Of a stretch of 64,000 nucleotides of DNA, positions 28,584 to 61,999 are shown in pieces. The position numbers and the translations under genes are program-made. The first letter of the stretch is position 1, and each line of letters opens with the position of its first letter. The notes beneath the pieces were generated by a model. That model was not told the origin of the DNA and made no database searches. It saw only the letters and a program-made list of their open reading frames with translations. Source of the stretch: Fischerella sp. CENA71 (GTDB lineage Bacteria > Cyanobacteriota > Cyanobacteriia > Cyanobacteriales > Nostocaceae); NCBI GenBank assembly GCA_024239075.1, contig JANBVI010000074.1, positions 62,001-126,000 of the forward strand, given 5' to 3'.

Positions 28584-28589
28584 ACTCTA
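28584..28589 (+). other. Recombination core ACTCTA, nifH 3' junction (attR-like)
   Basis: To the right, the sequence is nifH (TCT ACT CGT TTG ATG CTT CAC, reading S-T-R-L-M-L-H). To the left, it is element DNA (TTTTGTTAATTAT) leading to the recombinase start. The hexamer is the only stretch shared with the other junction at 61858-61863, where it is inverted. The exact crossover bases within or next to it cannot be fixed from sequence. Confidence 0.8.
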
Positions 28590-29335
28590 CTCGTTTGATG
28601 CTTCACAGTAAAGCTCAAACCACTGTGCTGCACTTAGCAGCAGAAAGAGGTGCAGTAGAAGACTTAGAACTCGAAGAAGTAATGTTAGCCGGTTTCCGTG
28701 GTGTGAAGTGCGTGGAATCTGGTGGTCCCGAACCTGGTGTAGGTTGCGCTGGTCGTGGTATCATCACCGCCATTAACTTCTTGGAAGAAAACGGTGCATA
28801 CCAAGACTTAGACTTCGTATCCTACGACGTATTGGGTGACGTTGTATGTGGTGGTTTCGCTATGCCTATTCGTGAAGGTAAAGCACAAGAAATCTACATC
28901 GTTACCTCTGGTGAAATGATGGCGATGTACGCTGCAAACAACATCGCTCGCGGTATTTTGAAATATGCTCACTCTGGTGGTGTGCGCTTAGGTGGTTTGA
29001 TTTGTAACAGCCGTAAAGTTGATCGGGAAGCTGAACTGATCGAAAACTTGGCTGAAAGACTCAACACCCAGATGATCCACTTCGTACCTCGTGATAACAT
29101 CGTTCAACACGCTGAGTTGCGTCGTATGACCGTTAACGAGTACGCACCCGACAGCAACCAATCTCAGGAATACCGTGCATTAGCTAAGAAAATCATCAAT
29201 AACACCAAGCTTACCATTCCCACACCAATGGAAATGGATGAATTAGAAGCATTGTTGATTGAATACGGTATCCTTGACGACGATACCAAGCACGCAGACA
29301 TCATCGGCAAACCAGCTGAAGCTTCTGCTAAGTAA
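28584..29335 (+). CDS. nifH: nifH 3' part (nitrogenase iron protein, residues about 46-295), without its start
   Basis: This piece encodes the NifH polypeptide from [10 protein letters not shown] onward. It keeps the cluster-ligand cysteines (in [19 protein letters not shown] and [10 protein letters not shown]) and switch II, but lacks the P-loop and start codon, so no iron protein can be made from here. Upstream is recombinase-element DNA rather than a nif promoter. The missing 47 codons lie on the other strand at 61858-61999. Joining the two at ACTCTA gives 47+2+246 = 295 codons, the length of Anabaena NifH, in frame. Downstream are nifD and nifK in normal order. It is best seen as a developmentally repairable gene, not a decayed one. 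Confidence 0.93.
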
Positions 29336-29350
29336 TTAATACCGTAGTCA

Positions 29351-29432
29351 AAGGAGACACGGAGATACAAAGACACGGGGACACGGAGACATGGAGTATT
29401 TCTCCCCATCTCCCCTTCTCCCCTTCTCCCTT
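29351..29432. repeat. GC-rich palindromic repeat between nifH and nifD
   Basis: A G-rich arm (GGAGACACGGAGATACAAAG and on) followed by a C-rich arm (TCTCCCCATCTCCCCTTCTC) around a short TATT centre. It is the same repeat type as those inside nifE, coxB and the light-sensor kinase, in a more degenerate form. It may form a stem-loop in the nifHDK transcript. Confidence 0.65.
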
Positions 29433-29497
29433 TCTTCCCTAATCCTCCCTTCTATACCTGCAATTACCCTAACCCATAAGTCTAACCGAGGCAGACT

Positions 29498-59658: not shown

Positions 59659-61011
59659 TTATACCCAAATATCGGAGGTAACATCACCACCAGGATAGCG
59701 GATCTCATGAGCGCGAGCGGGACCATTTGGTTCTTGACCAAAATCAACGTAGAAATTTTCGTTAATTTTCATCCCGCCATTTTCAGTATCACAATCAATT
59801 TGCAGTAAATAGGAACCTGTTTTAGACAAATCAGGGTAAAACTGATTATCCCAACTACTAAACAGGGAGTTTGTCACATAAAGCCGCTTGCCATCAAGAC
59901 TCAGTTGTAACATTTGTGGTCCACCAGCTAGTTTATTTCCTTGCACTTCCCCAGCTTTACCTAGTAAACCACCACACCAAACTTGACCTGTGAGTTTAGG
60001 TTGGGAAGGATTACTGATGTCATACTGGCGAATATCGCCGTGTAACCAGTTAGAAAAATAGACAAAGCGATCGTCCATTGAAATTAAAATATCAGTAATC
60101 AACGATGGCACCGGAATCGGCCAGCCTTCCACTTCTACCGACGGAATATCAATAACTTTCTCTACCTCCCAGTGTCCGTTAGCTTGATGCCAATGCCAAA
60201 CATTACTGCTAAGTGCTGCACCAACAAACCCGTGAGTACTATTAGGGTTGTGGTGAAAGCGCACTTCTAGAGGAATTAATCCTTCTTCACCTAAGTCAAC
60301 AGTTTGAATAATTTCGTGTTTTGACCAATCCCAAAAATGCAATTGATGCCCATAATTGCCAGCTGTGACATCGTTAAGGTCAAAGCCAGGATAATAAGTT
60401 TTAGGTGCGCCCCACTCACTACTTACCATGACATTATGGCGTGGCTGATACCAAAAGTCATAGTTAAACCGCATAGCATCAGCTTGATGTTCCCAGCGTC
60501 CAGCAATTTCAAAATTCTCATCCAGCAATAAAAAGCCACCTGGACCATTACCCTCACTGTCGCCTAGCATAGAAATCATCACATGACTATCAGCTAGACA
60601 GTGGACTGTGTGGGGTGCTGTTAAATTTGTTTTTTCTTTGATTGCTTCTGGTTCAATAACTTTATACAGTTTAGGAGCGCGGGCATCTATTGTATCAACG
60701 ATATAAATCCGGCTAGAACGTTGCCCTGGAATGACTAAAAATCGCCGCGATTTACTGCTATCACCATGACAAGAACTACAAGCATTCCAACCAAAATGAT
60801 GTAACTCATCACCAATGTAAGGCATGGGTAAACGATGAATTACTTGGGAATAAGTGGGAGAGTTAGGATCAACGTCTACAGTGGCAAGATAATCTGGTGC
60901 TGCAATATCCGTACCCGTGTAGAGGGCTATTGTATAAAGAATCTTTTCCCGTTCGGCTTTAATGGCTGCTTCTGGAGAAGCGTAGCCAGGACCACAGCAA
61001 GCATGACTCAT
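59659..61011 (-). CDS. Selenium-binding protein SBP56 family
   Basis: The 450-aa protein has the family start [40 protein letters not shown] and a beta-propeller pattern ending with [20 protein letters not shown], then [15 protein letters not shown]. Some bacterial members oxidise methanethiol, using copper, and eukaryotic ones bind selenium; the role here is unknown. ATG 61011 is used because conservation begins there; TTG upstream is less likely. It lies inside the putative invertible segment, close to its right end. Confidence 0.93.
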
Positions 61012-61038
61012 ATTTTTAATCTCCAATTTGAGTAAAAA

Positions 61039-61626
61039 TCACAACCAAATTTGTAAATCTAACTGCTTCAAATACCTCAAGCCAGAGACAATCTGTTCGC
61101 GATCGCCCCAAATTTCTAAATTAAACCAACCATCATTTTCATTGTTGGTATCTAACAATGCTTGAGTAATGTTAACAGTTAAACCACAATAAGTAACTAA
61201 TCCTGCAATTATTGGAAAAGAACGGTAATTTTTGGAAATACAGACTTGAAACTTTGCATGATTTGTTTGATATTGGGTTATTTTCCCTTCATCTAATTTT
61301 TTGACATAATTGGGACATAATATTTGTAAGTCTTTGATTTTCTGTTCTGTAAGGGTTGGAAAATTAAGCTGTTCAACTTTCATACTTAATCCTCGCAGAT
61401 AAGTAATACCTGATTCTAGTTGTTGAGAACTTCCTTGAATTTCTAAATTCAACCAACCATCCTTTTTAGTTTCGATTTCAAAAGCAGCAGCAGCAATATT
61501 GACACTCAAGTCGTAGCGAGAAATTAATCGCGAAATAATCGGTTGACGATGATATTTCTCAGGAACCCGAATTTCGATGCAACCTTGGGTGGGATTAAAT
61601 GTTGTAGACACATCCATCAGCTGCAA
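61039..61626 (-). CDS. Protein with two NIL-type domains
   Basis: A 195-aa protein made of two similar halves (about 10-90 and 112-195). Each has a beta start with I.VPE.Y...PIIS-type segment, LVNIT-like strand, and DGWLNLEIQGSSQQLESGIT or DGWFNLEIWGDREQIVSGLR, the NIL-domain signature (as at the C-terminus of MetN-type ABC proteins). NIL domains bind small ligands such as methionine, but in stand-alone proteins the role is unknown. It is the gene nearest the split nifH junction on this side, reading in the same direction as nifU. Confidence 0.75.
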   Translation of the reverse strand: MQLMDVSTTFNPTQGCIEIRVPEKYHRQPIISRLISRYDLSVNIAAAAFEIETKKDGWLNLEIQGSSQQLESGITYLRGLSMKVEQLNFPTLTEQKIKDLQILCPNYVKKLDEGKITQYQTNHAKFQVCISKNYRSFPIIAGLVTYCGLTVNITQALLDTNNENDGWFNLEIWGDREQIVSGLRYLKQLDLQIWL

Positions 61627-61857
61627 TCCCCTAATTTATAGTAGTTTTAATGTCAGTAATACATAGCCAAAATACCTATTTTTATCCCAACACCACTTTT
61701 GTAGTTCTGATATGCAAAACAAACTACACCAATTTGATAGTTTTAATGTAGATTGTCATAACTCAATTCTACTACTCACCACACTTATTTTGATAAGTTT
61801 GTAGTAAGCACGCTTGGTACTTACTTAAAAATTCTCTGTCTATTATGTAAAAACTAC
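61627..61857. other. Element-side DNA next to the nifH 5' junction
   Basis: About 230 bp between the NIL gene and the nifH break. It encodes the foreign 28-residue tail of the interrupted nifH and contains a small dyad (GTAAGCACGCTTGGTACTTAC). After inversion this DNA would lie upstream of the recombinase gene, so it may carry recombinase-binding or promoter sites; none is proven. Confidence 0.5.
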
Positions 61858-61999
61858 TAGAGTCAGCTTTAGGGTCACATCCGACAATCATAATCCGCTG
61901 ACCCATTTCTGCCATAGCGGCAAGGGTATTTTGAGAAGTTGTAGACTTACCGATACCGCCTTTACCGTAGAAAGCGATCTGTCTGATATTCTCAGTCAT
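61772..61999 (-). CDS. nifH: nifH 5' part, interrupted after codon 47
   Basis: The start of the nitrogenase iron protein: [20 protein letters not shown] (P-loop) through VGCDPKADS, then a foreign tail of 28 residues beginning SFYIIDREF and a stop. Without switch II and the cluster cysteines the 75-aa product cannot function. A good SD (AGGAG, 11 bases upstream) and the nifU-nifH leader are intact, so the normal nif expression signals are here. The continuation is on the plus strand at 28584. The breakpoint lies between codons 46 and 48. Confidence 0.93.
61858..61863 (-). other. Recombination core ACTCTA, nifH 5' junction (attL-like)
   Basis: On the minus strand the sequence reads GACCCTAAAGCTG, then ACTCTA, then GTAGTTTTTACATAATAG. 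To the left of the core it matches nifH (codons for DPKADS). To the right it is unrelated. The same hexamer lies in inverted orientation at 28584-28589. Confidence 0.8.

Follow-up and report, generated by a model that had tools for sequence, protein, structure and literature searches.

Introduction

The closest described relative of the locus reported here is a nifH element variant of cyanobacteria, inserted near base 150, which according to the available sections of Hilton et al. 2016 (PMC4874684) is associated with serine recombinases, is bounded by direct repeats, and is excised. Those sections treat elements as excised, and set aside as likely mis-assemblies seven interrupted genes (termed “odd assembly”) whose two sections run in opposite directions. 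Serine recombinases also act by inversion, as in Hin-type switches, where the DNA between two inverted sites is flipped (PMC8987985, in the part available). Besides PMC4874684, no report of opposite-orientation cases was seen among titles and the beginnings of abstracts, a coverage that lay outside preprints and most subscription papers, and the available parts of PMC4907049, PMC9649629, and PMC8987985 do not treat such cases. In this current study, a stretch of 64,000 nucleotides from Fischerella sp. CENA71 (contig JANBVI010000074.1, positions 62,001-126,000; hereafter the window, from the assembly labelled G000) was analysed, in which nifH is split into two halves on opposite strands. Judging from its sequence, we consider that nifH is probably rearranged in heterocysts by inversion at this locus, and that the arrangement descends from an XisF-type excision element, whose two ends interrupt nifH near codon 47 and now lie inverted relative to each other.

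Results

nifH is split into two inverted halves that join in frame

The 5′ part of nifH (codons 1-47) lies on the minus strand at 61858..61999, with its ATG at 61999, and terminates in the hexamer ACTCTA; the 3′ part (codon 46 to the stop, codons 46-295) lies on the plus strand at 28584..29335 and opens with the same hexamer. The two copies of this recombination core, at 28584..28589 (plus) and 61858..61863 (minus), are identical and oppositely oriented, and the predicted invertible segment between them (28590..61857) comprises 33,268 bp. When the halves were joined at ACTCTA, an open frame of 295 codons without interruption was obtained, as is appropriate for NifH (295 aa). As in a typical interruption element, a conserved gene is broken, its pieces join in frame, and both junctions carry the same short sequence. 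However, the junction repeats are not in the direct orientation by which excision rebuilds a gene; rather, inverted sites flank a segment, as in a Hin-type switch. The preliminary description had claimed both the inverted placement of the halves on opposite strands and their fusion at the shared hexamer into a 295-codon NifH; both claims were borne out by the strands and coordinates of the pieces and by the joined frame, including a stretch of 15 residues that it had given.

No second nifH was found in the G000 assembly, where a search at E ≤ 1e-10 returned the two halves plus one paralogue of 36% identity on another contig, probably chlL; weaker PF00142 matches elsewhere in the assembly were short. 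The broken ends of nifH are not a product of chance, given that the same codon and the same flanking arms recur in other genomes, as described below.

An intact XisF-type recombinase gene adjoins the 3′ junction

The key context of the split gene is an adjacent recombinase gene, which was absent from the text of the preliminary description. This gene, xis (27177..28547, minus strand), is intact and encodes a large serine recombinase of the XisF type (456 aa) with the Pfam domains Resolvase, Recombinase, and zinc ribbon. Its product scores 536 bits, compared with a cut-off of 375 for the NCBIfam XisF equivalog, and in this respect the locus resembles the fdxN element of Anabaena PCC 7120, which differs in that it is reportedly removed as a 55-kb deletion and lies in another gene. 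Hin-type switches employ a small serine invertase, and the 456-aa product with its Recombinase and zinc-ribbon domains is not of that size class.

As expected of an element, the recombinase gene lies at the element's end, with 36 bp between the xis start and the nifH 3′ core. These 36 bp (28548..28583, plus strand) form the recombinase-side att arm, which is similar in orthologous elements. The other att arm occupies 61830..61857 (minus strand), where the element of genome G001 matches from 61837 and that of genome G021 from 61830. Beyond the recombinase, the flank between xis and the next gene, Q1, spans 26690..27176, and the G001 element matches it from 26986 onward. At the opposite end, the stretch 61770..61829, between the homology to genomes G002 and G003 on the side of the NIL-domain gene (see below) and the att arm, was unmatched in those two genomes. 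A plasmid collection searched with the xis region yielded no match. A palindromic core, which would permit recombination in either orientation, was considered and rejected: on a reading of three genomes, the bases common to the G000, G001, and G021 junctions fit a non-palindromic CT/CC pair.

Relatives carry ordinary elements at the same nifH codon

Among 40 genomes, close xis orthologues occur in G001 (91% amino acid identity), a sister species in the same genus, in G021 (86%), which belongs to another genus, and in G010 (75%). Both G001 and G021 have their nifH interrupted at the codon seen in the window, but with the two parts in direct orientation; the recombinase lies at the nifH 3′ end of the element, and the elements measure about 22.5 kb and 6 kb, respectively; the arms beside the core are common to the window and these orthologous elements. 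In G010, the two parts of nifH fall on separate contigs, and it is the 5′ part that the recombinase borders. A scan of named genomes gave 16 loci, at 11 of which the recombinase arm directly borders the 3′ part of nifH at this codon and at 2 of which it borders the 5′ part; the remaining 3 have no direct nifH contact, although in two of these a nifH part lies about 0.25 kb away. These arm-nifH joins indicate that the element is of a nifH-associated kind and that nothing but the geometry of the element is unusual in the window. From its position, bases 136-142 here versus 150 ± 7 on the other reference gene used in the available sections of PMC4874684, we infer that this is the nifH variant of Hilton et al., likewise a serine recombinase element inside nifH near the same place.

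Gene order in relatives points to a single inversion

In the window, Q1 (25258..26688, plus strand) adjoins xis, and a gene encoding a NIL domain (61039..61626, minus strand; hereafter NIL) adjoins the nifH 5′ part. In G002 and G003, Q1 is the chromosomal gene that follows NIL. Sequence matching window positions 36167-61769 forms a single run in G003, with gaps at 44783-45845 and 51594-53569, which ends at NIL and is followed by Q1 (26684-25077). On one contig of G002, the left flank (8975-26670) leads into NIL and 61768-45864 in reverse; another contig carries an intact nifH together with 28584-44778 and 61858 onward. nifH is also intact in G011 (another genus), where the match continues to 50870, and in G004, where an element is instead found in nifD. 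In G001, G004, and G011, Q1 comes after an NhaP gene, and SBP56 and NIL are missing from between the two. Assembled from these several genomes, the pre-inversion order is reconstructed as nifU-nifH-nifDKEN-cox-NhaP-SBP56-NIL-Q1. On this reconstruction, one inversion that runs from nifH codon 47 to the interval between NIL and Q1, the place now occupied by xis, plus the loss of a small gene, is sufficient to explain both new junctions. The comparison with relatives proposed in the preliminary description thus revealed a genuine inversion, one breakpoint of which falls within nifH.

The small gene in the NIL-Q1 interval of G002, which is also present in G003 by alignment, is AIG2/GGCT-like; an initial CpeT-like assignment was wrong. 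A second rearrangement was noted in G003, with intergenic breaks at window positions 24374/24471 and 36068/36167; it is at these breaks that contig G003:C1 begins and terminates.

nifH bears the marks of purifying selection

When the joined nifH was compared with the intact nifH of G004, 19 synonymous bases and 1 nonsynonymous codon differed. Against G004, G003, G002, G001, and G011, respectively, nonsynonymous codons numbered 0, 0, 0, 0, and 1 in the 5′ half (codons 1-46) and 1, 3, 3, 5, and 8 in the 3′ half, and synonymous changes numbered 2, 2, 5, 5, and 15 in the 5′ half and 17, 27, 33, 35, and 54 in the 3′ half. The ratio of nonsynonymous to synonymous divergence (dN/dS) of the whole gene was 0.014-0.039 against these five relatives, and that of xis was 0.12 against G001. 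These values indicate that nifH is under purifying selection.

Inverted nif pieces occur in other assemblies

nifH pieces were surveyed in 66 genomes, 26 of which had been selected because they possess an xis relative. By visual count, two or more nifH pieces shared a single contig in 19 genomes (G033, with matches of 34-60% identity, was left out). In the survey rows, opposite-strand pieces were seen in two of the 19 (G000 and G205), and the pieces of G062 were out of order. Once additional stretches had been taken for G062 and G205 only, an unequal effort that placed a fourth G062 piece on the opposite strand, the count became three of 19, the other 16 being direct in what was seen. In G062 (G062:C1:4383892-4499588, on a 7.24-Mb contig), nifH is in four disordered pieces on both strands, with codons ~259-293 and nifD on the minus strand, followed by codons 134-262, 3-48, and 47-138 on the plus strand; correctly ordered, these give an in-frame NifH with 4 differences over 291 aligned positions from that of the window. 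G205 (G205:C250:1245-34231) also has four nifH pieces, the second of which (codons 47-138) is reversed, and its nifD and nifK are in pieces as well.

A second sample was made up of 30 genomes in which the location of an intact nifH was known (27 of no more than 10 contigs, and 3 of 20-30). In the 39 kb downstream of nifH, at least two pieces of nifD, nifK, or nifE were present in 17, only the first nifD piece in 2, and unsplit genes in 11. One of the 17 had a reversed segment: in G007, nifK3′-nifE5′ is reversed (G007:C1 ~1416900-1423200, on an 8.48-Mb contig), with recombinase genes on both sides. In the sister genome G003 (3.48-Mb contig), nifD3′-nifK5′ is reversed; there (G003:C1:3435-20773), nifD codons 1-266 are on the minus strand, nifD 261-496 with nifK 1-430 on the plus strand, and nifK 428-512 on the minus strand. 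The joins tested, namely those of G003 nifD, G003 nifK, G007 nifK, and G205 nifH, were in frame and free of stops, and their cores measured 10, 4, 7, and 2 bases, respectively; since each join was chosen by best protein score, the shorter cores alone prove little. The inverted nif pieces of G003, G007, G062, and G205 are candidates drawn from assemblies.

Other genes and repeats of the window

The nifH 3′ part is followed on the plus strand by intact nifD (29498..30988; TIGR01282), nifK (31138..32676; TIGR01286), and nifE and nifN (33270..36052; TIGR01283 and TIGR01285), then by genes with DUF269, NifW, ThiF, Fe-S biosynthesis, and Fer2 domains (36616..39347). The genes for cytochrome oxidase subunits II, I, and III (47340..50751, plus strand) also lie inside the segment. 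Upstream of the nifH 5′ part, on the same (minus) strand, are nifU and a partial class-V aminotransferase gene taken as nifS (62233..64000), and beyond the window a ferredoxin gene and a gene with nifB-like domains. The window further contains a tandem array of 21-bp period (14546-14923) and a short dispersed repeat, with two direct copies (18843-18957 and 57136-57250, 96% identical) and a partial inverted one (41738-41799).

Discussion

The combined data are best accommodated by the following course of events. In all likelihood, the element was at first a normal excision element of nifH. One chromosomal inversion would then have reversed the block nifH3′-nifDKEN...cox...NIL, so that the recombinase came to lie with one arm between Q1 and nifH3′, while the second arm ended up between NIL and nifH5′. 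In heterocysts, both cores would be recombined by this enzyme and, because these are inverted, the product would be a flip of about 33 kb and not an excised circle. Such a flip would rebuild nifH and return nifDK behind nifU-nifH. Given that recombination between inverted sites flips the intervening DNA, a 33-kb heterocyst flip that restores both nifH and the operon is to be expected, and we predict a developmental inversion switch for nitrogen fixation. Unintended inversions by the serine integrase Bxb1 have been described in an engineered circuit (PMC9649629, in the part available). Since no DNA would be lost and the joined arms would lie beside xis, a return to the starting state is in principle conceivable on one and the same molecule.

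Of the two origins offered in the preliminary description, a later inversion with a break inside an ordinary nifH element is favoured, because the sister G001 retains an ordinary element at the same codon; a recombinase-driven origin stays as the main alternative. In the latter, which is compatible with a rearrangement by inversion, xis and an att site lay between NIL and Q1, and the recombinase itself made the inversion by recombining with an intact nifH. In its favour, the nifH break is exact at the core, and sister sequence leaves no more than about 90 bp unmatched on one side and 1.9 kb on the other. Against this, the interval before Q1 is without xis in G001, G002, G003, and G004, and G001 carries xis as an ordinary nifH element at that codon. 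We regard a recombinase-made inversion as a tenable but somewhat doubtful origin.

It is unlikely that a real inversion killed the system, so that nifH is no longer rebuilt and nitrogen fixation is lost or being lost. A recent event would leave no decay, and the rearrangement is itself deduced; however, nifDKEN, xis, and the two parts of nifH are all intact, the core is the same at both junctions, neither att arm has been lost, and the dN/dS of nifH is low. An assembly error, with an ordinary direct-orientation element in the true chromosome and a mis-joined contig, is improbable, even though G000 is a draft of 95 contigs and the earlier opposite-direction cases were put down to mis-assembly in PMC4874684 (available sections), since no long repeat that could cause mis-joining was found at the junctions by repeat and junction-query searches among the scored candidates. 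The longest exact inverted match between the junction neighbourhoods was 13 bp; junction queries of 541 and 171 bases gave full-length matches to themselves and, beyond these, nothing but fragments of no more than about 61 bp with 78-100% identity (40 of 91 and 40 of 76 initial candidates scored, respectively); and inverted repeats of 47-62 nt (70-83% complementary) exist but lie away from the junctions. The window contains zero N bases, and inverted nif pieces are also present on contigs of 7.2 and 8.5 Mb, the size of a chromosome. Moreover, the two new joins fit together as the halves of a single ancestral neighbourhood (NIL and Q1), a pattern to be expected from one true inversion but not from two errors arising independently.

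Several further points weigh against a rearrangement by inversion that arose as outlined above. No single relative has the whole ancestral order on one contig. The AIG2/GGCT-like gene was not found in G000 by one DNA search (40 of 41 candidates scored, run without a positive control), which suggests that the event was not a clean cut-and-flip. The synonymous divergence (dS) of xis from G001 was 0.43, compared with 0.13-0.37 in the six orthologues compared (nifE and nifN, for which only distant paralogues matched in G001, and cyoE and SBP56, which had no match in the compared stretches, were left out), and thus vertical descent of the element is not certain, although xis may have been passed down with the genus. 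The age of the inversion cannot be read from purifying selection, and the event may have happened too recently for decay to have set in. Finally, the flip itself, with its timing and any accessory factors such as XisH and XisI, is a prediction from sequence.

The proposed inversion switch can be set beside the known systems. It shares its place in nifH with the variant of Hilton et al., but direct repeats and excision in the available account (PMC4874684) are replaced here by inverted junctions around the nif cluster and chromosomal genes. As in the seven “odd assembly” genes of that account, which were not characterised there and were judged likely mis-assemblies, two gene sections point opposite ways. 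Serine recombination between inverted sites is shared with Hin-type switches, but these select flagellin or tail-fibre genes (PMC8987985, part available), whereas here a large XisF-type recombinase would rebuild one broken gene over 33 kb. The disordered nifH of G062 invites a further comparison. Scrambled genes of ciliates likewise consist of pieces that are inverted or out of order; the ciliate machinery is unrelated, however, and here there are site-specific recombinases and few pieces.

Whether heterocyst formers carry truly scrambled nif genes, whose inverted and disordered pieces would be assembled by programmed inversions and excisions, is to our minds evenly poised; the window would then be the simplest case, a lossless and resettable 33-kb flip that rebuilds nifH and the operon, and the cases earlier called mis-assemblies would be of this kind. 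The simplest way to a working nifH in the window is a flip of the intervening DNA, unlike the excision used by ordinary elements, and the inverted junctions predict exact new DNA joins in heterocysts, which makes the prediction easily testable. To the reactions of bacterial cell differentiation, a gene that becomes functional most directly by way of a large inversion would add a second type. It would also show that an excision element can become an inversion switch through an ordinary chromosome rearrangement, and would reopen the cases that have been set aside.

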